NCBI GenBank assembly: GCA_030682715.1
Contig: JAUXNQ010000024.1
Coordinates: 62,001-126,000 of the forward strand
Direction: 5' to 3'
Origin: Methylotenera sp.
GTDB lineage: Bacteria > Pseudomonadota > Gammaproteobacteria > Burkholderiales > Methylophilaceae
DNA length: 64,000 nt
This document shows, in pieces, positions 49,393-62,292 of this stretch (its first letter is position 1; every line of letters starts with the position of its first letter). Below the pieces are notes generated by a model. That model saw only the letters and a program-made list of their open reading frames with translations, had not been told where the DNA came from and did no database searches. A program made the translations under genes and the position numbers.

Positions 49393-49872
49393 ATGACAAA
49401 CCCACTTACCCACTTTGATCAAAACGGCCAAGCCCATATGGTCGATATCGGCGAAAAAGCCGAAACCCACCGCATAGCAGTTGCAACAGGTCACATTAGC
49501 ATGCAGCCTTCAACACTAACACTTATCCAAGCTGGCAACAGTAAAAAAGGGGATGTACTTGGTATCGCCAGAATCGCTGCGATTCAGGCCGCAAAAAAAA
49601 CATCAGATCTTATCCCGCTGTGCCACCCGATTTCACTCACGCGCATTGCCGTTAGTTTTGAGGTAATTGAAACATTGTCTAGCATCAGTTGCTCAGTTAC
49701 CACCGAAACTTACGGAAAAACTGGCGTAGAAATGGAAGCACTAACCGCAGTGAGCGCTTGCTTACTCACCATTTACGATATGTGCAAAGCAGTAGACCGT
49801 GCGATGACAATTTCGGAAATCAAGCTGCTAGAAAAACATGGCGGCAAATCGGGCGATTGGTTAGCGCCATAG
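49393..49872 (+). CDS. moaC: Cyclic pyranopterin monophosphate synthase, 3' end supplied by an inserted element
   Basis: A 159-residue MoaC, which with MoaA makes cyclic pyranopterin monophosphate for molybdenum cofactor. Family motifs [47 protein letters not shown] and KSGDWLAP are complete. The last 150 bases overlap a duplication: a second, diverged copy of this end is at 56306-56458. The simplest reading is that a mobile element inserted here and replaced the native C-terminal codons with its own copy, so the gene stays functional. The C-terminus changed from VANN to LAP. Confidence 0.95.
49723..49790 (+). repeat. attL: left 68-bp direct repeat within moaC
   Basis: Identical over 68 bases to 56306-56373 (starts GGCGTAGAAATGGAAGCACT). 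The crossover core must lie inside. Sequence to the right of this block diverges between the two copies, and so does sequence to the left. Confidence 0.9.
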
Positions 49873-49919
49873 TAAGTACTAACTTATAAACACTACAAAT
49901 TAATTAAAAATGTACTCTC

Positions 49920-49936
49920 GTCCAAATCCTGTCCAA
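49920..49936 (+). repeat. Left arm-type integrase repeat
   Basis: GTCCAAATCCTGTCCAA: a pair of GTCCAA hexamers 11 bases apart, just before the integrase gene. It matches 16 of 17 bases, in the same orientation, to 56173-56189 near the other end. Confidence 0.6.
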
Positions 49937-49950
49937 CTAAAGGATAGAAA

Positions 49951-50934
49951 ATGGCGTCAATACGTTATCGCAACAATAAGTGGCAAGCACGAGTAATTCG
50001 CAAAGGACACGCACCTGTAGCACGCTCATTCTTAACCAAGCAAGATGCTGAACGATGGTCTAGAAGTATTGAGACCGAGATGGATAGAGGAGCATACGTT
50101 AGCACCAGCGAGGCAGAGCAAACTACCTTAGGAGAGCTAATTACTAGATACATGCTTGAAGTTACTCCAACCCTACGAGGTGCAAAGGAGGACTTGATAA
50201 GACTCAACGCTATCAGACATAGGTCGATTGCCAAACTTAGCCTTACAGCTTTAACCCCTAGTAAGATTGCTATTTATAGGGATGAGCGTTTAACTCAAAT
50301 CAAAGCTAATACCCTCATAAGAGAGCTAGCCTACTTATCAAGTATCATCAACCATGCCAGACGTGAATGGGGTATCAATATGACTAACCCTGTTAGTTTG
50401 GTAAAGAAACCTACTTGCCCACAGGGCAGGAGCAGGATACTCAGTGATGATGAAAGAGCAAGACTGCTCCAAGCTGCAAAGCAGATTAATAATCGCGTTC
50501 CTTGGCTAGAGCCACTTATCTTACTTGCTCTTGAGACAGGTATGCGAAGAGGTGAGCTATTAGGCCTAAATATAAAGCACCTCGACCTCAACAAACAGGT
50601 AGCGCTACTAGAGCTGACAAAAAACGGAGATAGTCGTTATGTGCCTCTGTCACTAGCTGCTGTAGCGATAATTAAGAACTTACCCCTTACTCCAGATGGT
50701 AGGTTATTTTCTATCAATGCCCATTGTGTACACCCTGTATTCAATAGAGCTAAGAATAGAGCCAAATTGGAGGACTTCCATTTTCATGACCTACGCCACA
50801 CAGCTATTACGAATATGGCTGAAAAATTACCTAATTTACTAGAGCTGTCTTCAGTTACTGGTCATCGTAGCTTAAAGATGCTTCAGCGCTACTATCATCC
50901 TGACCCTCAGAGTTTAGCTAAGAAGCTAGGTTAG
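49951..50934 (+). CDS. int: Tyrosine recombinase (integrase) of the island
   Basis: A 327-residue phage-type integrase. The N-terminal arm- and core-binding part has MASIRYRNNKWQARVIRKG and DAERWSRSIETEMDRG. The catalytic domain shows Arg in LALETGMRRGELLGL, HDLRHT with the His-x-x-Arg pair, GHRS and the tyrosine nucleophile in LQRYYHPD, so all catalytic residues are present. The ATG follows AAAGGA at good spacing. It lies 78 bases after moaC, adjacent to attL, the usual place for an integrase that targets a 3' gene end. It should catalyse integration and excision at the moaC sequence. Confidence 0.95.
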   Translation: MASIRYRNNKWQARVIRKGHAPVARSFLTKQDAERWSRSIETEMDRGAYVSTSEAEQTTLGELITRYMLEVTPTLRGAKEDLIRLNAIRHRSIAKLSLTALTPSKIAIYRDERLTQIKANTLIRELAYLSSIINHARREWGINMTNPVSLVKKPTCPQGRSRILSDDERARLLQAAKQINNRVPWLEPLILLALETGMRRGELLGLNIKHLDLNKQVALLELTKNGDSRYVPLSLAAVAIIKNLPLTPDGRLFSINAHCVHPVFNRAKNRAKLEDFHFHDLRHTAITNMAEKLPNLLELSSVTGHRSLKMLQRYYHPDPQSLAKKLG

Positions 50935-51117
50935 CTCCTTATGTGCAAGCTATAAGTCTGTAGCTCTATTCTTAAAACAGCTTACCTCCTATAGGAAGAG
51001 TATCAATTTTTATTAAACAATTTCGCGACCATACCTCGATGATATGCAGACCCTAGAAGCCCCCTTGCAGGCCTCTGGGCTTGCGTTCATATCACAGGGA
51101 TGGCATTACCTCTCCAG

Positions 51118-51219
51118 TGTACGAAAACGACCCATTACGTACATATCTTTAATGCATGTACGAAAGTAAGTTGTTTTATTTTCGGACACATTGTAATATA
51201 CGTACATCCATTTCGGACA
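51118..51219. promoter_or_regulatory. Res-like recombination region with three inverted-repeat subsites
   Basis: Three dyads lie directly before the resolvase gene: 51118-51143 (26 bp), 51157-51188 (32 bp) and 51192-51219 (28 bp). Their half-sites read TGTACGAAA, TGTACGTAA, TGTACGAAA, TGTCCGAAA, TGTAATATA and TGTCCGAAA, close to the TGTCCGAAA-type half-site of Tn3/gamma-delta resolvases, and the spacing pattern resembles that of res sites I-III. They should bind the resolvase and may also repress its promoter. Confidence 0.7.
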
Positions 51220-51235
51220 AGTACAGGAGAGCATC

Positions 51236-51820
51236 ATGTCTAGGGTATTCGCATATTGCCGTGTATCAACTACAGACCAAGTAACAGAGAATCAAGTGCT
51301 AGAGATTAAGAATGCAGGCTTTGCGTTAGAGCCTCATAGGATAGTAGAAGAAAAGATTAGCGGCTCTGTAGCTGCGTATGAACGTCCTGAGTTCAAGAAG
51401 TTATCAGAGAGGCTTGAGGCTACTGATGTACTCATAGTAACCAAGCTAGACCGCTTAGGTCGCAATGCTATAGATGTTAGGTCTACCGTTGAGAAGCTAG
51501 CAAAGGCAGGCGTAAAGGTTCACTGCCTAGCACTAGGTGGTGCAGACCTCACTAGCCCTGCTGGTAAGATGACCATGCAAGTTATCTCTGCTGTAGCTGA
51601 GTTTGAACGTGACTTACTTATTGAGCGCACGCACTCTGGGCTTGATAGGGCTAAGGCAGCAGGCAAAAAGTTCGGTAGGCCTAGCGCATTAACTGCACAT
51701 GAAAAAGAAGATGTTGTAGCATTAATCAAGTCTGGTAGTTCTATATCTGAGGTTGCCCGTAGATTTAAAACAAGCAGGCAGACTATTCTCAGAGTACGCG
51801 ATACAATAAGTGGGGATTAG
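51236..51820 (+). CDS. Small serine recombinase (resolvase/invertase family)
   Basis: A 194-residue serine recombinase. The catalytic Ser is in [11 protein letters not shown], followed by the conserved [21 protein letters not shown] and the E-helix motif [16 protein letters not shown]-terminal helix-turn-helix ([21 protein letters not shown]) follows the GRPSAL linker. The size and layout match Tn3-type resolvases and DNA invertases. The ATG follows AGGAGAG. No transposase is near, so it may resolve multimers of the excised element or be left from a transposon. Confidence 0.94.
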
Positions 51821-51890
51821 ATAAGTTTTGTACCAAAATCCTAATTATATTACTGCGTAATATTAAGTACTAATTTACAAAGAACTAAAC

Positions 51891-52730
51891 ATGGAAAATA
51901 AAGGTGTAGAAGAGTTTTCTGAGGAAGACCCAGAGCCTAGCTACGTAGCTGAACGGCAGAAGTTAGATACTACCGCTCTCATTATAGACTTCAACGTACT
52001 GGATGAGTTAGACGCCTTTGAGGCTAAACACGAATATGTGGATTACTTAAACAGTATTGAAGACGAACTACCTAATCACGGACAAGCGGATACTGACCCT
52101 CAAGCAGCTTATGCGACTAACCGTGACCTAAGAGCTGAGTTACGAAGTAGAGTAAGCAAAGCTCAACAGCAGGCTTTATTAGAGTTCTCGAAAGAGTACC
52201 CTGTAGAATCATCACAGCTTAAGCTGATAGCTAATGCGACGGTAGTCACTGCGAATAAGAACAGGATAAATTATAAAGCCACTTACTTAGCAATAATGGA
52301 TTGCTTACTTGATAGAGGCCAAACACTTAAGACGCAAAAGGACATCTTAGAGAGAGTTAAATTCATTACAGGCATCCATGAACTAACTGCAAACCTCTGG
52401 ACACGCACTTTCAGAAGCTATACTTTTACCCTACTTAATAAGCGCATCTCTGATGAAGGTCTGAAGATTTCACTAGTAAACTGTAAGACTCTCTCAGATG
52501 TACGTAAGCGAGTACAAGCGTATTTCACGTCTCTAAACGGAGAGCTTAAGCTTAAGGCTGAATTAGTAATAGCTGGTAGCAAATTAGTTGTAAATGGAAC
52601 TACTTACCCAATAACCTTAAGCGGCTCAGGTACCAGTGAATACAAAAGAATTCGCGTCAATGTAGGTGATAAGAGGCAATGGATAAGGCTCGATGCATTG
52701 GAGGCGCTGCTCGATACAAAGAATAAATAG
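51891..52730 (+). CDS. Unrecognised island protein
   Basis: A 279-residue protein I cannot assign. The N-terminal 85 residues are acidic and probably flexible (EEFSEEDPEPSYVAE). A helical middle part follows (about 85-215, with RSRVSKAQQQALLEFSK and KTQKDILERVKFITGIHEL). The C-terminal 70 residues look beta-rich (LVIAGSKLVVNGTTYPITL, then YKRIRVNVGDKRQWIRLDALEALL) and could be a small nucleic-acid- or protein-binding domain. There is no signal peptide or membrane segment. It is 70 bases after the resolvase, on the same strand. Confidence 0.65.
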   Translation: MENKGVEEFSEEDPEPSYVAERQKLDTTALIIDFNVLDELDAFEAKHEYVDYLNSIEDELPNHGQADTDPQAAYATNRDLRAELRSRVSKAQQQALLEFSKEYPVESSQLKLIANATVVTANKNRINYKATYLAIMDCLLDRGQTLKTQKDILERVKFITGIHELTANLWTRTFRSYTFTLLNKRISDEGLKISLVNCKTLSDVRKRVQAYFTSLNGELKLKAELVIAGSKLVVNGTTYPITLSGSGTSEYKRIRVNVGDKRQWIRLDALEALLDTKNK

Positions 52731-52991
52731 TACTCACTGCTAGTAAATTAGCTATTAGCAGAACATCTTTGTATCGTTACCTTGAAGCTGTATAAAACAC
52801 TTGTCTCAGTGATTGAGTGATAGCGATGTTGCGAATTTTAAAGCACCTTATGCGCGTAGACTTTTTGCCTGATACCAAAGCTAAGGCTAATCAAGAATAA
52901 TCGTTTATAGCGCGTTTCTGTAATTCGATATTATTGAGCTATTGGCTTGTAGCCTTGTTCTAAAGGCTATTTGATACAGCTAGCGCTGTGA

Positions 52992-53315
52992 CTACCTTGT
53001 AGCTTCTGCTTCAAGTAGTTCAATCATGCTACTGATAACTTCACTACGCTTAATCTCGTCTAGCTTGTTTAACGCCAAGTGCAGCTCTGTAGTATCTTCA
53101 CTACATATGAACCAAGTCACGGGTCTAGCTAACGTACTAGCAATCTTTTCTATCATTGAAAGTGGTGGTGTATGTCTGCCGCTCTCATACTGATTCATGC
53201 GTACTTTAGCGGTAGCTTCATCAATACCAACTAATACGCCTAGAGCCTCTTGAGTCAGACCTGCCGCCAGCCTAGCTTTACGCATCCTAAGTGCAAACAC
53301 CTCTTCTAGTTTCAT
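52992..53315 (-). CDS. XRE-family transcriptional regulator
   Basis: A 107-residue regulator with an N-terminal Cro/CI-type helix-turn-helix (MRKARLAAGLTQEALGVLVG, then the recognition region ATAKVRMNQYESGRHTPP). The rest is a helical C-terminal tail. The ATG follows AAAGAG at good spacing. It is the only intact gene on the minus strand of the island and faces the lipoprotein gene across a 106-base gap holding a perfect palindrome. It probably represses itself and the divergent cargo genes (inference). Confidence 0.9.
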   Translation of the reverse strand: MKLEEVFALRMRKARLAAGLTQEALGVLVGIDEATAKVRMNQYESGRHTPPLSMIEKIASTLARPVTWFICSEDTTELHLALNKLDEIKRSEVISSMIELLEAEATR

Positions 53316-53369
53316 AACTACTCTTTAAGTACTAAGAGTTAGTTTTTACACTTTTCAGCTTGCTTTTGA

Positions 53370-53386
53370 GTTAAGTTAAACTTAAC
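53370..53386. promoter_or_regulatory. Candidate operator palindrome of the island XRE regulator
   Basis: GTTAAGTT-A-AACTTAAC is a perfect 17-bp palindrome in the divergent gap, 36 bases before the lipoprotein ATG and 55 bases before the regulator start. A weaker dyad (ACTCTT/AAGAGT) lies at 53320-53339 next to the regulator start codon. Confidence 0.5.
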
Positions 53387-53421
53387 CTACACACCCTTTA
53401 TCAATTCATAAATAATAAATC

Positions 53422-53901
53422 ATGCGCAACGAGTTATTACTACTTACTTTGGCAGCTACTTTATCCAGCTGCGCCTCCAACTCAGGAATTATGCCAATAG
53501 GACGAGATACCTTCATGGTGTCACGTCAGGCAGCGACTGGCTTCTCTGGGTCAGGTACTCTGAAGGCTGAGGCTTTTCAAGAAGCTACTCAATACTGTAC
53601 TAAAGAAGGCAAGTTCATGCAGGTAGTTAACACTCATGAAGCTAGCCCACCTTACATCTTTGGAAACTTCCCTAAAGCTGAGGTTCAGTTCATGTGCCTA
53701 AGTGCAAGTGATGCTGAGCTACAACGCCCAAAACTAAAGAAAACTCCAGACCAGACTATTGAAGTCAAGCAAGTAGAAAAGGTGGGGGCTGACTCTAGCG
53801 ACTCCTATGCACAATTAAAGAAGCTTAAAGAACTACTAGACTCTGGCATCATTAATCAAGATGAGTTTAATACTGAAAAGCATAAGATTCTAGCTAACTA
53901 A
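53422..53901 (+). CDS. Lipoprotein with C-terminal SHOCT-like helix pair
   Basis: A 159-residue predicted lipoprotein. The signal peptide ends in lipobox LSSC (Cys17). The middle has a GTLKAEAFQEATQYCTKEGK region seen in small outer-membrane lipoproteins of unknown role. The C-terminal 32 residues (YAQLKKLKELLDSGIINQDE and what follows) fit the SHOCT motif, a short oligomerisation element. It is the first gene right of the palindromic operator, followed by the membrane protein gene 67 bases later. It probably works at the envelope; function unknown. Confidence 0.78.
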   Translation: MRNELLLLTLAATLSSCASNSGIMPIGRDTFMVSRQAATGFSGSGTLKAEAFQEATQYCTKEGKFMQVVNTHEASPPYIFGNFPKAEVQFMCLSASDAELQRPKLKKTPDQTIEVKQVEKVGADSSDSYAQLKKLKELLDSGIINQDEFNTEKHKILAN

Positions 53902-53968
53902 AACAAACTTAGAGCCTCATATGATTACATGTGAGGGTAGTGTTAATACTCGCGAATGGAAAGTAATA

Positions 53969-54325
53969 ATGATTTATGTGATTGCAGCTATCATGAGCTA
54001 CCTTGTTAATAATAGTATCGTGGTTAAAAAATCTACGCTTATAGGAACGCATAGCAACGCCACACTAAACGCTTTGACTGCGCTTGGCTCTTGGGGCGGG
54101 TGGCTGTGCATAATCCCCGCAGCCTTTATTGTGGGAACTTCTGATGACTACACGGCGATTAATGGTGTTCTGTTTATGGTCGCTGCATTTGTAGCTAGTT
54201 ACATTGCACCAATTGACCACATAGTAGGCCGCGTTCATGGTTATATCGTTGGGTATATACTTAGTGCATTAACACTGCCGATTAATGCAGCATTGGTCAT
54301 ATATTTGTATGTAGACCTACATTAA
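53969..54325 (+). CDS. Small polytopic membrane protein of the island
   Basis: A 118-residue protein with about four hydrophobic segments (MIYVIAAIMSYLV, ALTALGSWGGWLCIIPAAFIV, NGVLFMVAAFVASYIA, GYIVGYILSALTLPINAALV). I choose ATG 53969, preceded by GGAAAG six bases upstream; a start at 53921 would add a polar 16-residue extension. Family not recognised. It is probably co-transcribed with the lipoprotein gene. Confidence 0.62.
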   Translation: MIYVIAAIMSYLVNNSIVVKKSTLIGTHSNATLNALTALGSWGGWLCIIPAAFIVGTSDDYTAINGVLFMVAAFVASYIAPIDHIVGRVHGYIVGYILSALTLPINAALVIYLYVDLH

Positions 54326-54339
54326 GTTATTTACTAAGG

Positions 54340-54567
54340 ATGCGCGAACGTATATATCTTTTTTGGTCAGCCTATAAGTTAATCCAGGAATGGTTAGATA
54401 CTTATTTTCCTCGCTCTACTGTACACATCTCAAGCCAATGCAGACACCCAGCAAGGTACTGTTATGAGCGTAACGGAGGTGCTGTGCTTGATACAGGCGA
54501 CAATCAACACAACGGGGCTGGAGAACAACTAATAAATGACTTTGTTTGTTACCATATCAAAAGCTAA
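54340..54567 (+). CDS. Doubtful small ORF
   Basis: A 75-codon frame lying 15 bases after the membrane protein gene and overlapping the leader of the next gene. AAGG directly abuts the ATG, which is too close for a good ribosome-binding site. It has four Cys residues and no recognised motif. It could be a remnant or non-coding sequence before the HNH-like gene. Confidence 0.25.
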   Translation: MRERIYLFWSAYKLIQEWLDTYFPRSTVHISSQCRHPARYCYERNGGAVLDTGDNQHNGAGEQLINDFVCYHIKS

Positions 54568-54590
54568 CTCCGTATAGGCCTAAGAAACTC

Positions 54591-55517
54591 ATGAAAACCT
54601 GCCACCCTGCTATCCAACTACATTGCCCTTACACATCTAAACTACTGACTGAAATTGACTCAGTGAACGCCGAACACATTTTACCATTTGCCTTAGGTGC
54701 GCCTCAAAACTTTACCGTACTCGCGGATGCAAGTGAAAACTCTAGGATGGCTAATCTCATCGACACACCTTGTACAAATGACCCACTCATAAGAATGCTT
54801 GCTGTGGCCGCAGGAGTTGAATCGCGCTCGGGTCGAGTTGTACTGAAAACTTCTGGAACTAATGCAGCTACAGGCGATGAAATCCGCGCATCTATCAGTC
54901 AAGATGGACTGAAATTTCGATATCAATCCCCAGTTGATTTTGACCATACAACTGGTCTGCCAACCGCAGTAAAAGGATTCAACGATGAAGCGGCGGTGAC
55001 TGCTGAACAAATCAAAATCAAGTATGCGTCAAAAGGTATTGACTTAGAATTGGGTGATACTGTTTTATCTTCCAATCCAGATTTGCACTTTTCATTTAAT
55101 GGGAACTTGAATTTATTGCAACAAGAGCTAATAAAAATTGCTTATCTAATGACGGTCTTTGTATTCGGCGATGAAGCAATCCTATCTGATAATGGAGATT
55201 TATTCAGAACAGGCATTATGGCCAAGGACTTCGTTGAGCTAGCTAAAGTGGGAATAGGTGGAGGTTCTGGAGTTGCTGAGTCGATGGCGTTCATGCCAAA
55301 GTCACAGCCCAATAATCACGTTTTGACGTGCTTTACATCTGGAAGTAATGTTATCTCAGCAGTGAGTTTATTTGGGGTATTTTCGGCTTGCTACATAACC
55401 CCTGCTAGAGGTATCGCTTGTGAACCACTCACAGGCAAAGTAGTTACAATTAGACCATCAACCAAAGCTATAACCTGCATCTCCTATCTTGACTGGTTAA
55501 AATCACATTCATTTTGA
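54591..55517 (+). CDS. HNH-nuclease-like protein with eroded zinc ligands
   Basis: A 308-residue protein. Residues 10-60 resemble the HNH fold of mid-size HNH endonucleases: LHCPYTSKLLTEIDSV, the core AEHILPFALGAPQNF (Glu-His as in EHIIP..LGG), and ENSRMANLID in place of the usual Cys-x2-Cys-Asn. Only one of the four expected zinc Cys remains, so metal binding may be lost. The later segment LLQQELIKIAYLMTVFVFGDE matches the KIAY-type helix seen after such HNH domains. I use ATG 54591, not a TTG at 54546. It might be a defence or nicking enzyme, or an inactive relative. Assignment is tentative. Confidence 0.55.
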   Translation: MKTCHPAIQLHCPYTSKLLTEIDSVNAEHILPFALGAPQNFTVLADASENSRMANLIDTPCTNDPLIRMLAVAAGVESRSGRVVLKTSGTNAATGDEIRASISQDGLKFRYQSPVDFDHTTGLPTAVKGFNDEAAVTAEQIKIKYASKGIDLELGDTVLSSNPDLHFSFNGNLNLLQQELIKIAYLMTVFVFGDEAILSDNGDLFRTGIMAKDFVELAKVGIGGGSGVAESMAFMPKSQPNNHVLTCFTSGSNVISAVSLFGVFSACYITPARGIACEPLTGKVVTIRPSTKAITCISYLDWLKSHSF

Positions 55518-55684
55518 CGTTGCGTATTACTTAGCGACACCTAACCTTAGCTTCTTTGCTCTGAGCTATCACGCATCCATCGTTGTTAGTCAGCACTACG
55601 ACTGGAGTTGTGCGTAGGTCAGGTCTAAAAACTTTCTCACAAGACGCGTAAAACTAGTTCGCATCACAGAGCGCGAATACGGGC

Positions 55685-56101
55685 TTATTTGGGCTGGCGA
55701 ATGACATAGGTCACGACACCGAATATCACCAGCTCCTGCCCCTCTGCCAGCACGATAGGAACATGTTCTGGGTTATCAGAAAGCAGCTTAACCACATTGC
55801 CGCGTTTATATAATCTTTTGACCATCCACTCACCGTCTACGTCTGCGATTATGATGCTAGAGGACTTAGGTTTAACTGCTCTATCAACTATCACGATAGA
55901 GCCGTCATAGGTGCCAGCTCCTATCATGGGGTCGCCTTTTACTTGAAAGAAGAAGGTAGCTGGTGTGTTAGTGATGCGCCTATCATTAAGGTCTAAGAAC
56001 TTCTGTTCGTAGTCTTGATCTGAAGAAGGGAAGCGCGACTGCCCTGCTGATACGTTACCGCTGTATATCGGTCTCGCTAGTGCTGGTGGGTTGGGTAAGA
56101 C
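55685..56101 (-). pseudogene. umuD: umuD-like remnant with dead active site and no start codon
   Basis: A 138-codon frame with clear UmuD/LexA S24 peptidase similarity: PNPPALARPIYSGNVSAGQ (with the Ala-Gly self-cleavage site), FPSSDQDYEQKFLDLNDR, VKGDPMIGAG and MVKRLYKRG with the catalytic Lys. The nucleophile Ser of the usual GDSM is Pro (codon CCC). The frame begins directly after an in-frame TAA (56104-56102) with no ATG, GTG or TTG before the GDPM Met. No umuC follows. It is therefore probably a decayed gene, although the frame is otherwise intact. Confidence 0.82.
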
Positions 56102-56172
56102 TTAAGGTATGTCGAGCGACTTATCATGCTCACTAGAGGCCTTGATACTAAGTCTTCTGGCACTCGATTCCT

Positions 56173-56189
56173 GTCCAATTCCTGTCCAA
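56173..56189 (+). repeat. Right arm-type integrase repeat
   Basis: GTCCAATTCCTGTCCAA, matching the left arm repeat (49920-49936) at 16 of 17 bases with the same 11-base hexamer spacing. It lies about 117 bases inside attR. Confidence 0.6.
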
Positions 56190-56305
56190 GTCAGTCCTAA
56201 ATATACTATACTATCCACTCGATTAATCTCAGGAACAACTTGGCGAGAAGTACACCACAAATTAACTAAGCAACTGTTTATAAACAATAAACCACAGGTC
56301 AAACC

Positions 56306-56373
56306 GGCGTAGAAATGGAAGCACTAACCGCAGTGAGCGCTTGCTTACTCACCATTTACGATATGTGCAAAGC
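56306..56373 (+). repeat. attR: right 68-bp direct repeat
   Basis: Perfect copy of 49723-49790, marking the right end of the island and the start of the displaced moaC end. Confidence 0.9.
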
Positions 56374-56458
56374 GGTGGATCGTGGGATGACAATCTCAGA
56401 GATTAAGCTACTAGAAAAACACGGTGGGAAATCTGGTGATTGGGTGGCAAACAATTAG
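56306..56458 (+). pseudogene. moaC: Displaced 3' fragment of moaC
   Basis: Fifty codons plus a stop, encoding [20 protein letters not shown] and on to [13 protein letters not shown]. The first 68 bases are identical to the active moaC; the rest differs at many third positions and ends differently. It has no start signal. It is most simply the original chromosomal end of moaC, cut off by the island. Confidence 0.88.
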
Positions 56459-56519: not shown

Positions 56520-59126
56520 TCACAGCGCTAAGCCACTGATGACTAGTTTTTCAAAACTCGCAACATCAGTCGGCCTGCTAAAGTAATAACCTTGGAAATA
56601 ATCACAGCCAAAACTTCTTAACAGCTCGTATTGCTCAACTTGCTCAACACCTTCCGCGACAATATCGCAATGAATGGTTTTACCAACGGCAAGTATCATT
56701 TGAATAATCGCCGCATCATTTGAATCTGTGAGTACATCATGCACAAACGACTGATCAATTTTGATTTGAGTCACTGGCAATTTCTTGAGATACACCAATG
56801 AAGAATGCCCAATCCCAAAATCATCCAGAGAGATTCTGACACCCATCTGCTTCAATACTTTCATCTTATTGATCACATCATCAATACTATCAATCACGGC
56901 TGTTTCAGTAAGCTCCAACTTAAGCTGGTCGGGATTAATAGCGGTTGTTTCTAATATTTCACGCAACTCTTTTACAAAGTTGATATATAAAAACTGCTTA
57001 GCACTAATATTAACTGACAGCTTGATTTGACTTAAGATTGGGTCTGATTCCCATATTTTTAATTGCTGGCATGCATGCGCCAACACCCAATGTCCAATTT
57101 TAATGATTTGATTCGTTTTTTCTGCAATCGGTATAAACTCAACAGGACTCACATTACCAAGCGTTGGGTGGCTCCATCGCAATAACACTTCAGCCGCAAC
57201 CACTTGCTTATCCACATTCACAATCGGCTGGTAGTTAAAATATAACTCATGATTAATAAGTGCCACTGAAAGCGCGGACTCTAATGCAAAGTTTTTTTCT
57301 ATGCTCTCTTGCGTTAATTGATCATAAAACCGATAAGTGTTACCACCACTTTCTTTAGATAAGTACATCGCCGTGTCTGCATGCCTCAAATGATCTTCAA
57401 AAGTCAGTTGATGATCATTAAACAAGGTAATGCCGATGCTGGCACTGGTAGCAAACTCAAACAAACTTAAATAATAATTTTTATTAAGCTCCGCCAAAAG
57501 TTTCTGGGCTATTTCACTCACCTGTTGATAAGCAACTGTGGCACTAGAGTCTAAATTTTCTAAAATCACCACAAACTCATCACCGCTGAGTCTCGCAACG
57601 GTGTCTCCAGCCCTCACCGTATTTTGTATTCTTTTAGCCACTTCAATCAGCAACTGATCGCCTACATCATGACCTTTAGTGTCATTGAGTGCTTTAAACT
57701 TATCTAAATCAATAAACAATAACCCACAGTAAGTGCCTACCCGTTGCGCAATTAAAATCGCATGCTGATAACGATCAATCAACAAACGTCTATTAGGCAA
57801 AGCCGTCAGCGAGTCATAATAAGCAAAATTCTCGATCTCCCGCCTAGCTTTTTTCTGTTCAGAAATATCGCGTATAAATCCAGTGACCAACCACAAATCA
57901 GCATCTTTTAAAGCAGTTAGCGTTAACTCTATCGGAAACTCACCACCATCTGCACGCATTGCAACCATTTCAATGCGTTGGTTAAAAATATGCTTCACAC
58001 CAGACTTAACATATTGCTGGTGTCCAGCCTGATGGGCAGTTCGGTATCTTTCGGGAATAATCAATTCCGACATCGGCTTCCCTAAGACGTCTTCCTTTTT
58101 ATACCCAAAAATACGCTCTGCTGCTGGATTAAACTCAACCAACAGGCCTGCTGCATCAATCGTTAAAATGGCGTCGAATGATCCATTAATCACTGCGCGT
58201 AGCTTCTTATCGTGTTTTTGTATGGTCTTAAGTGCTAAATTTCGCTCAGATTGCAAGGCAGAAATTAACAACATGGTCACCACTAATGCCACCATAAACG
58301 TCCACAGTGAGAAGACACCCTCACTGATGTTATGACTATAAAAATTACCAGTGCCCTGCGAAGTAAGCCATACAGCAATGCTGGATAAAATAATGACAAA
58401 GAAAGACCCACCGACAATACCAAAGTTCATCGAAGCCCATATGAGCATGGGCAAAATCACAAACATGGATAAAATAAATTGTTTATTTAAATCAGGCACA
58501 AAGCTCACAATAATGAGCTCAACGCATATAAATAAAATAATCCACGCCAGCAACTGATAGCACTTATTATCGCAAGAAAACGTACCTTCTCTACCGATAT
58601 TAAGCACTAAGGGCAACGCCAATAAAACGCCTAAGCTATCGCCCAGCCACCAGATAAACCAAATACTTAACAGATGATCAGCACTTGCTATCTCAGTGAC
58701 ATATAAGCTAAATATACCGCCTGTGGCACACACCAGCATGCCAAGTAGCGCCACCACAATCATTAGTAAAATATCTTTTTGCTTGTATAGGTGATGATTA
58801 AAATGAAATTTAGGTAAGAAGTATGCAACCAGAACTGGGCCCAGCGTGTTTGTAATTGCAATTAAGATGCTGGCAGAGAAGGGTAAAACTGTTAATTCAA
58901 CCAGTAATGACGCGATAAAAATAGCGGGGATGCTGATTTTTCCCCAGCGCATAATCGCCCCAACAGCAATGCCAGTGGGAAGCCAAATCAGGGTAGCTAC
59001 AGACTCTTTGTAAGGCACCATCAGCCCAAGTTTAGCTGTTACAAAATAAGCCAGTGCCACTAAAACAAAAGTCATCAACTTTGTTTTAAACGTTGATGAC
59101 CGATACTGAGTGGCAATGTTTTTCAT
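56520..59126 (-). CDS. MASE1-PAS-GGDEF-EAL cyclic di-GMP protein
   Basis: An 868-residue membrane protein for cyclic di-GMP turnover. An N-terminal MASE1 sensor with about eight membrane segments (about 1-295) is followed by PAS (about 305-430), GGDEF (about 435-600) and EAL (about 610-860). The cyclase loop is SGDEF instead of GGDEF, with an RAGD I-site before it. The EAL signature is EVLLRW, and the metal and catalytic residues in DDFGIGHSSLVYLKKL and KIDQSFV are present, so phosphodiesterase activity is likely. It starts nine bases after the trpE stop on the same strand, probably by read-through. Confidence 0.93.
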   Translation of the reverse strand: MKNIATQYRSSTFKTKLMTFVLVALAYFVTAKLGLMVPYKESVATLIWLPTGIAVGAIMRWGKISIPAIFIASLLVELTVLPFSASILIAITNTLGPVLVAYFLPKFHFNHHLYKQKDILLMIVVALLGMLVCATGGIFSLYVTEIASADHLLSIWFIWWLGDSLGVLLALPLVLNIGREGTFSCDNKCYQLLAWIILFICVELIIVSFVPDLNKQFILSMFVILPMLIWASMNFGIVGGSFFVIILSSIAVWLTSQGTGNFYSHNISEGVFSLWTFMVALVVTMLLISALQSERNLALKTIQKHDKKLRAVINGSFDAILTIDAAGLLVEFNPAAERIFGYKKEDVLGKPMSELIIPERYRTAHQAGHQQYVKSGVKHIFNQRIEMVAMRADGGEFPIELTLTALKDADLWLVTGFIRDISEQKKARREIENFAYYDSLTALPNRRLLIDRYQHAILIAQRVGTYCGLLFIDLDKFKALNDTKGHDVGDQLLIEVAKRIQNTVRAGDTVARLSGDEFVVILENLDSSATVAYQQVSEIAQKLLAELNKNYYLSLFEFATSASIGITLFNDHQLTFEDHLRHADTAMYLSKESGGNTYRFYDQLTQESIEKNFALESALSVALINHELYFNYQPIVNVDKQVVAAEVLLRWSHPTLGNVSPVEFIPIAEKTNQIIKIGHWVLAHACQQLKIWESDPILSQIKLSVNISAKQFLYINFVKELREILETTAINPDQLKLELTETAVIDSIDDVINKMKVLKQMGVRISLDDFGIGHSSLVYLKKLPVTQIKIDQSFVHDVLTDSNDAAIIQMILAVGKTIHCDIVAEGVEQVEQYELLRSFGCDYFQGYYFSRPTDVASFEKLVISGLAL

Positions 59127-59135
59127 CACATTTTC

Positions 59136-61581: not shown

Positions 61582-62292
61582 TTATTTTACAGTTGCCAAA
61601 GATGCACGCATTTCAGCCACAACAGTGTTGTAACGGTTTGCATCAGTGTCTTTTGGTGAGCCAAAAATTGCTGAGCCCGCAACAAACGTGTCCGCGCCAG
61701 CACGTGCAATTTCTGCAATGTTTTGTGCGTTCACGCCACCATCTACTTCAAGCCAAATTTGACGGCCAGTTTTTTCGTAGTACGCATCGATTCTAGCGCG
61801 AGCTAATTTTAGTTTTTCCAATGTTTCAGGAATAAATTTCTGACCGCCGAAACCTGGGTTCACTGACATCAGTAGAATCATATCTACTTTGTCCATCACG
61901 TGATCAAGATAGCTTAATGAAGTAGCAGGGTTAAACACCAAACCAGATTTACAGCCTAAATCACGCACCATCGCCAAGCTACGGTCAATATGCTCTGAAG
62001 CTTCAGGGTGAAAAGTAATGATGTTTGCACCAGCTTTTGCAAAGTCAGGAATAATACGGTCAACAGGTTTAACCATTAAATGCACGTCAATCAACGCGCC
62101 TACTTTTTTTGCAGTTTCGCGAATGGCATCACAAACCAATGGGCCAATGGTTAAGTTAGGCACATAGTGGTTGTCCATTACATCAAAATGCACGATGTCT
62201 GTGCCTGAAGTAATCACGTCATCAATCTCTTGACCAAGTTTGGCAAAGTTCGCAGAAAGAATACTTGGGGCAATTCTAAAAGTTTTATCCAT
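61582..62292 (-). CDS. rpe: Ribulose-phosphate 3-epimerase
   Basis: A TIM-barrel epimerase interconverting ribulose 5-phosphate and xylulose 5-phosphate; important for pentose recycling, also in ribulose monophosphate methylotrophy. Motifs are [62 protein letters not shown] and [13 protein letters not shown] use ATG 62292; a TTG at 62307 adds five residues. It is divergent from hemA, with roughly 117 bases between the starts. Confidence 0.97.

Follow-up and report, generated by a model that had tools for sequence, protein, structure and literature searches.

A 6.6-kb genomic island in the 3′ end of moaC of Methylotenera sp. and an integrase lineage found at moaC and pntB

In the 64,000-nucleotide window of Methylotenera sp. 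(Methylophilaceae) analysed here (the whole stretch, positions 62,001 to 126,000 of contig JAUXNQ010000024.1, assembly GCA_030682715.1), the gene moaC is followed by a genomic island of 6,583 bp, which has a tyrosine integrase gene next to moaC and is bounded on the far side by a second copy of the moaC 3′ end. We favour, with a probability of roughly 0.92, the reading that this integrase placed the island site-specifically in moaC, and that the element's own attachment site (attP) supplied the gene with a new 3′ end. Furthermore, the integrase probably belongs to a lineage that, in several families of proteobacteria, has become specialised on the codons for a conserved motif of MoaC; one branch of this lineage would have jumped to the unrelated gene pntB.

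The island is bounded by repeated moaC sequence: the 3′ end of the gene occurs twice (148 nt at 89% identity), and this repeat contains a perfect direct repeat of 68 bp (left block, attL, 49723-49790; right block, attR, 56306-56373; offset 6583). On the left side, moaC itself (49393-49872, on the forward strand, as are all features below unless stated; Pfam MoaC, 6.8e-57) is intact, and the integrase gene (49951-50934, 327 amino acids; Phage_integrase, 7.5e-28; phrog_1 integrase, 4.2e-59) starts 78 nt past its end. On the right side, attR continues into a displaced moaC 3′ end that includes the stop codon TAG (56374-56458). Thus the core claim of the first-pass annotation, a model's note on the same letters, stands: it had described an island of about 6.6 kb in the 3′ end of moaC, with a perfect 68-bp repeat bracketing an integrase, a resolvase, a regulator (the Pfam matches given here and below agree) and cargo.

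An empty site, which that annotation had proposed to look for in relatives, was also found. Among 60 relatives, the closest by MoaC identity (94%) is G026, in which moaC is directly followed by the same EAL/GGDEF gene that flanks the island on the right (56520-59129, reverse strand); the flanking M48 and EAL proteins of G026 are, in their covered parts, 97% and 96% identical to those of the window. Joining the window's flanks at the repeat gave, against G026, matches by segment of 309/330 (the 5′ part of moaC), 66/68, 76/82 (the displaced right-hand end, 56374-56455) and 64/68. The EAL/GGDEF gene adjoins moaC in eight of the 29 other moaC loci (G026, L034-L038, L040 and L042), all in island-free relatives; among the remaining loci, G017 holds an integrase, G009 a relic, and 19 have other or unread neighbours. 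With 68 bp identical and an empty site in a relative, the repeat of the gene end is not due to chance.

The two gene ends differ in origin. While the displaced end matches G026 at 76/82, the final 82 nt of intact moaC (49791-49872) match at 59/82: the right-hand 3′ end is native and the left-hand one came with the island. The intact moaC is therefore a hybrid of a host 5′ part and an island-supplied 3′ end, such that the insertion repairs the gene it enters. Differences between the left and right ends are mostly silent: the encoded proteins differ at one internal residue and at the last few.

To locate related elements, we searched with the integrase in 61 relatives, 52 genomes of the genus and 187 of the family, in even draws of 399 genomes of the order, 369 of the class and 398 of the phylum (each set including the window's own genome), and in genome and viral collections. 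A script identified the gene preceding each located integrase, and matches without a locus (13 of the 43 in the order draw, three of the 23 in the 61-relative search) were left unclassified. moaC precedes the integrase in 14 genomes: eleven in the window's family (its own, G000, and G017, G449, G855, G894, G288, G910, G909, G913, G875 and G877, the assignment of G449 resting on 26 moaC codons at a contig end) and three outside it (G167 from the same order; G815, Ottowia beijingensis, locus L008; and G661 from the same class, outside the order). The integrases of G909 and G913 are closely similar, as are those of G875 and G877. At E <= 1e-85, 12 of the 187 family genomes match; the integrase follows moaC in 11 of these but not in G868; in the phylum draw, the own genome gave the only match among the 398. 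The recurrence of the integrase at moaC, which the first-pass annotation had proposed to look for, is thus borne out by 13 other genomes and one relic. The latter, in G009 (L063; L009 7710-7945), is what is left of a window-type island: behind moaC stand a stump of the integrase (84% over 32 amino acids) and, next to it, a regulator start (82% over 50 amino acids). Elsewhere in the own genome, on other contigs and away from moaC, lie a second integrase (L065, G000:C15:524-1411, 34%) and a fragment (L066, G000:C49:3412-3828).

At four loci (L003-L006: two in Polynucleobacter, one in a beta proteobacterium and one on a probably mis-binned contig) the integrase follows a gene that, named from its translation, we take to be pntB, and more distant integrase relatives adjoin transfer RNA (tRNA) genes or unidentified neighbours. 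L005 and L006 are nearly identical over the pntB-integrase region; one is filed as Thermoflexus hugenholtzii (Chloroflexota) and the other is beta-proteobacterial, and this near-identity is the reason to regard the Thermoflexus-filed contig as probably mis-binned. In a tree of 53 integrases, for which 16 of the 71 loci were set aside for an identity below 38% and two more (L009 and L010) as fragments, the 18 moaC and pntB rows (14 + 4) form one group (support 98/92), in which the four pntB rows nest as one subgroup (100/99); an earlier 45-row tree gave 98/83 for the group and 100/100 for the subgroup. Among the 35 rows outside it, 14 were labelled tRNA by ARAGORN, the rest having other or unidentified neighbours, and for L013 and L091 the upstream sequence is too short to tell. 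Three target labels required two changes on the 53-row tree, which is the minimum, and none of 200 shuffles was as low. The simplest reading of the branching would be one change of target, from moaC to pntB. Its direction depends on rooting among the tRNA-type relatives; the tree is drawn midpoint-rooted, with support of 95/63 for the nearest outside branch and 54/54 at the root fork.

The suggestion in the first-pass annotation that moaC may be a distinct integration niche, outside the tRNA-type targets usual for such integrases, is supported, with two corrections. The lineage does recur at moaC, and ARAGORN found no tRNA gene in the 64-kb window; on the other hand, the lineage is not confined to moaC, as the four pntB members of the group and the tRNA genes or unidentified neighbours beside more distant relatives show. 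Nor is lying outside a tRNA gene special, since protein-coding genes are common targets (43.4% among ~1.75 million mapped islands, according to PMC12424338).

Displaced gene ends were found for 12 of the 14 moaC insertions and for all four pntB insertions (two of which, L005 and L006, are nearly the same sequence). In eight genomes the displaced moaC end lies within the fetched stretch, and the distance from first to second end varies: 4.5 kb in G894, 7.6 in G877, 7.8 in G875 and 7.9 in G288 (6.6 kb in the window), and, among the larger islands, 9.7 in G910, 12.8 in G913 and 13.6 kb in G909. The second end of Ottowia is ~37 kb downstream on the same contig, those of G017, G167 and G661 are on other contigs, and at the two pntB loci that hold both ends the second ends are at 7.1 and 7.6 kb. 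Some loci are more complex: L004 (G817) and G818 have three pntB 3′ ends each, and the integrase-side pntB piece of L004 is preceded by non-pntB DNA, which suggests two tandem elements at pntB. The Ottowia locus has, between the moaC stop codon and the integrase, 29 bp that repeat a piece of the moaC interior in inverted orientation at 96.6% (L008 9910-9938, just after the stop codon).

These data also bear on a simpler origin of the repeat, in which a local duplication or homologous recombination made the right-hand moaC piece and the neighbouring integrase is incidental. The two ends are indeed homologous over ~150 nt, enough to recombine. Such an origin is nevertheless highly improbable, given that i) G026 retains an empty site; ii) the same junction recurs in 13 further genomes, the two ends being 4.5 to ~37 kb apart where both were located on one contig; iii) the left and right 3′ ends have diverged from each other in the window, G017, G815 and G909; and iv) targets cluster on the integrase tree, none of 500 shuffles being as low.

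Identity blocks of 14 left/right attachment pairs (that of G449, which starts beyond the core, was left out) intersect on 7 bp, TGTGCAA (49781-49787, with the same letters at 56364-56370), at +5 to +11 of a core that begins GAYATG; the lower limit is set by G661 and the upper by G909. Over these 7 bp, a usual overlap length for tyrosine integrases, 13 of the 14 pairs are identical. The core, of the form GAYATG-NNN-AARGC-N-RYNGA, precedes the integrase in 17 of the 18 group members, and in the 18th (L102) it is cut by a contig end. It encodes the MoaC motif DMCKAVD, whose D and K align with positions 128 and 131 of E. coli MoaC (1ekr); we take both to be active-site residues, and our literature search on an active-site role of MoaC 128/131 found no paper. 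The predicted crossover is 82 nt before the moaC stop codon, within this conserved motif, which obliges the island to bring a long piece of the gene with it. In pntB, the final codons (for DMVKAVE) are a near match to the 20-bp moaC core, and their spelling of almost the same letters (for example GACATGGTCAAAGCAGTTGA, against GATATGTGCAAAGCAGTAGA in the moaC of the window, with GACATGGTGAAAGC in that of G288 as an intermediate) would account for the jump to pntB. Six moaC cores were turned into a scoring matrix, with an ad hoc pseudocount, and the window and 14 loci were scanned with it. Of the 498,590 positions, 13 reached the lowest pntB score; all were moaC or pntB sites, one of them the empty site of G026, and the moaC of G014 (L064) was scanned and fell below the threshold.

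We propose that insertion would proceed as follows. The integrase would recognise the ~20-bp core in the codons of DMCKAVD, and the attP of the circular island would hold this core inside the moaC 3′ end that the element itself carries. After pairing attP with the chromosomal core, the integrase would exchange strands within the ~7 bp TGTGCAA, in the M-C-K codons. moaC would then read on into the island copy and remain complete, though slightly altered, while the native 3′ end would be pushed to the far side. The products to be expected of such a reaction are present in many genomes, as the repeat, the empty site, the hybrid gene, the common target in relatives and the similar core in pntB can be seen directly. 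The reaction itself is inferred from them, and so are the exact overlap, the arm sites, the activity of the integrase, and excision as a circle together with its control.

Arm-type sites are candidates only. With up to two mismatches, TGTCCAA-N4-TGTCCAA has three matches in the window against 0.49 expected, and 2 of 100 shuffles reach three; a candidate left site, CGTCCAA-N4-TGTCCAA (49919-49936, one mismatch), lies before the integrase, and a candidate right site at 56172-56189 matches exactly. The TGTCC pair pattern precedes the integrase in 11 of the 18 group members, compared with three of the 35 other rows.

Several observations weigh against site-specific integration as described: i) No clear second moaC end was found for G449, where the pieces are ambiguous, or G855, of which 6 kb was read, and we infer, rather than see, that moaC ends on other contigs belong to the islands; ii) The G875 pair has one mismatch inside the 7-bp overlap, reflecting either a later mutation or an overlap placed slightly off; iii) The comparison of pntB with the core was post hoc, made once the likeness had been seen; iv) The window is among the seven of 18 group members without the left TGTCC pair pattern, and at right ends the pattern occurs in three of ten, versus 25 of 2000 random windows; v) The guanine-plus-cytosine content of the island (42.4%) equals that of the flanks (42.6%), and composition thus gives foreign origin no support.

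Behind the integrase, the island encodes a serine resolvase/invertase (51236-51820, 194 amino acids; Resolvase, 1.3e-37) with 72.5% identity to plasmid-borne recombinases in the best rows among the matches listed; just upstream (51118-51235), repeated GTACGAAA / TTTCGGACA motifs look like a res site by eye. It is followed by a 279-amino-acid protein, accessory or cargo (51891-52730; Pfam, NCBIfam and PADLOC without match), which has no relative in the other 51 genomes of the genus, plasmids or viral contigs. Next are an Xre-type regulator (52992-53315, reverse strand; HTH_31, 8.6e-9; HTH_3, 1.6e-8; PADLOC control-protein model, 1.1e-26), a SHOCT-domain protein with an N-terminus that is lipoprotein-like by eye (53422-53901; SHOCT, 7.2e-10), a small protein that is membrane-like by eye and without a convincing family (53921-54325), and a 308-amino-acid cargo protein (54591-55517) of no family, the N-terminus of which is HNH-like by eye only; relatives of this protein were found neither in the 51 remaining genomes of the genus nor in viral contigs. 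The regulator was considered as a defence system and dropped, the PADLOC matches being helix-turn-helix proteins. For the 279- and 308-amino-acid proteins, searches of PDB sequences gave nothing usable, and single-sequence structure predictions were uninformative (mean predicted local distance difference test score, pLDDT, of 37.0 and 31.9, respectively). At the right end lies a decayed umuDC remnant (approximately 55540-56100, reverse strand; Peptidase_S24, 3.5e-16; phrog_811 UmuD-like, 6.8e-23): umuD has no start codon and reads GDP where UmuD has GDS, and of umuC, judged by eye, only an N-terminal piece containing a stop codon is left.

Eight open reading frames (ORFs) of the island were scanned for mobility functions, the 75-amino-acid ORF at 54340-54567 and smaller or overlapping ORFs being left out. 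No relaxase or conjugation gene was recognised among the eight with Pfam (a scan that did not extend to the transfer origin, oriT); no phage structural, packaging or lysis gene with PHROGs; and no primase-replication module or excisionase with either. A match to the packaging family phrog_1482 (terminase, E 0.001) was dismissed as a cross-match to the helix-turn-helix of the resolvase. With no relaxase or phage structural gene recognised in these ORFs, transfer between cells would need another element.

The cargo is not the same in all islands inspected. Those of G894, G875, G017 and L004 have primase/helicase genes (RepB_primase, DUF5906, D5_N, PriCT_1), and the L004 island also carries a glycosyltransferase. 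In the moaC island of G909, a protein matches the candidate defence model PDC-S46 (L149 3088-5250; PADLOC, 3.1e-220), and a second tyrosine recombinase lies near the far end (L149 13864-15099). Satellites such as P4 carry primase/helicase genes, and those in the related moaC or pntB islands would fit an island packaged as a phage satellite by a helper phage; for the window island, in whose eight scanned ORFs no primase, capsid or terminase was recognised, this is unlikely.

A better-supported possibility, compatible with insertion by the integrase, is that the island was inserted in this way and is now a fossil, its excision factor lost and its right end decaying. The decay of umuDC, the lack of a recognisable excisionase in the scanned ORFs and the G009 locus, which keeps just the integrase stump and the regulator start after moaC, near a contig end, all point in this direction. 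On the other hand, the integrase is encoded over its full length, neither copy of the 68-bp block has acquired a mismatch, and the excision factor could be the 279-amino-acid protein or the Xre protein. We lean slightly against a fossil.

If the proposal is true, a natural change of target gene is explained by a common core, with the integrases and both sets of attachment sites in hand. Small islands in this family and some of its relatives could then be predicted to land in moaC, which makes it possible to find them and to place their limits exactly. Because the integrases at moaC and pntB resemble each other closely, one can ask which of their residues determine target choice, and the nesting of the pntB branch offers a natural experiment on how integrases change target. 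Moreover, both targets are codons under constraint at the protein level, and this constraint may preserve the site in different species.

Repair of the target gene by an island is a known theme, treated in PMC12884075, the accessible text of which does not mention moaC. We did not find moaC described as an integration target in the open-licence literature, a limited body of text that tests this absence weakly. Papers that mention moaC mostly concern it in other settings; one, PMC7019866, names moaC (Rmet_4428) as bordering CMGI-A, an island of Cupriavidus. A tblastn search of the plasmid collection gave nothing above 41.2% (best 25 of 2288 records), and CMGI-A stays a lead. As an element the window island is of a common kind, its target gene is one that we did not find described, and the switch from moaC to pntB is the part worth following.

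Among known systems, the flexible islands of Methylophilaceae are small, variable and equipped with integrases, as is the window island, and the three main ones are tied to tRNA genes (PMC10872708). The words moaC, moa and molybdenum are absent from the main text of that paper, and the xerC-bordered insertions which it reports might include some moaC islands. The elements of G017, G875, G894 and L004 share the integrase group and the core with the window; their primase/helicase genes set them apart, none being recognised in the window island. Phage integrases have full-length similarity to that of the window, the best at 36.8% (a Mannheimia phage; best 15 of 555 matching records), and no record at least 60% identical was found among these 555. 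According to PMC2297512, SGI1 uses the last 18 bp of thdF, with a second site of related sequence possible, and the preferred secondary site of SXT is pntB. The window lineage thus resembles the SXT element, which resides in prfC, in targeting a protein-coding gene and in using pntB; it differs in that the sites of SXT lie in the 5′ ends of both genes, whereas here the 3′ end of pntB is used and no conjugation genes were recognised. The closest parallels are SGI1 in thdF and e14 and phage 21, which sit in icd: like them, the window island has a tyrosine integrase and a repeat of the gene end on both sides, and unlike them its lineage targets moaC, or pntB in one branch, with a predicted crossover as far as 82 nt before the stop codon.

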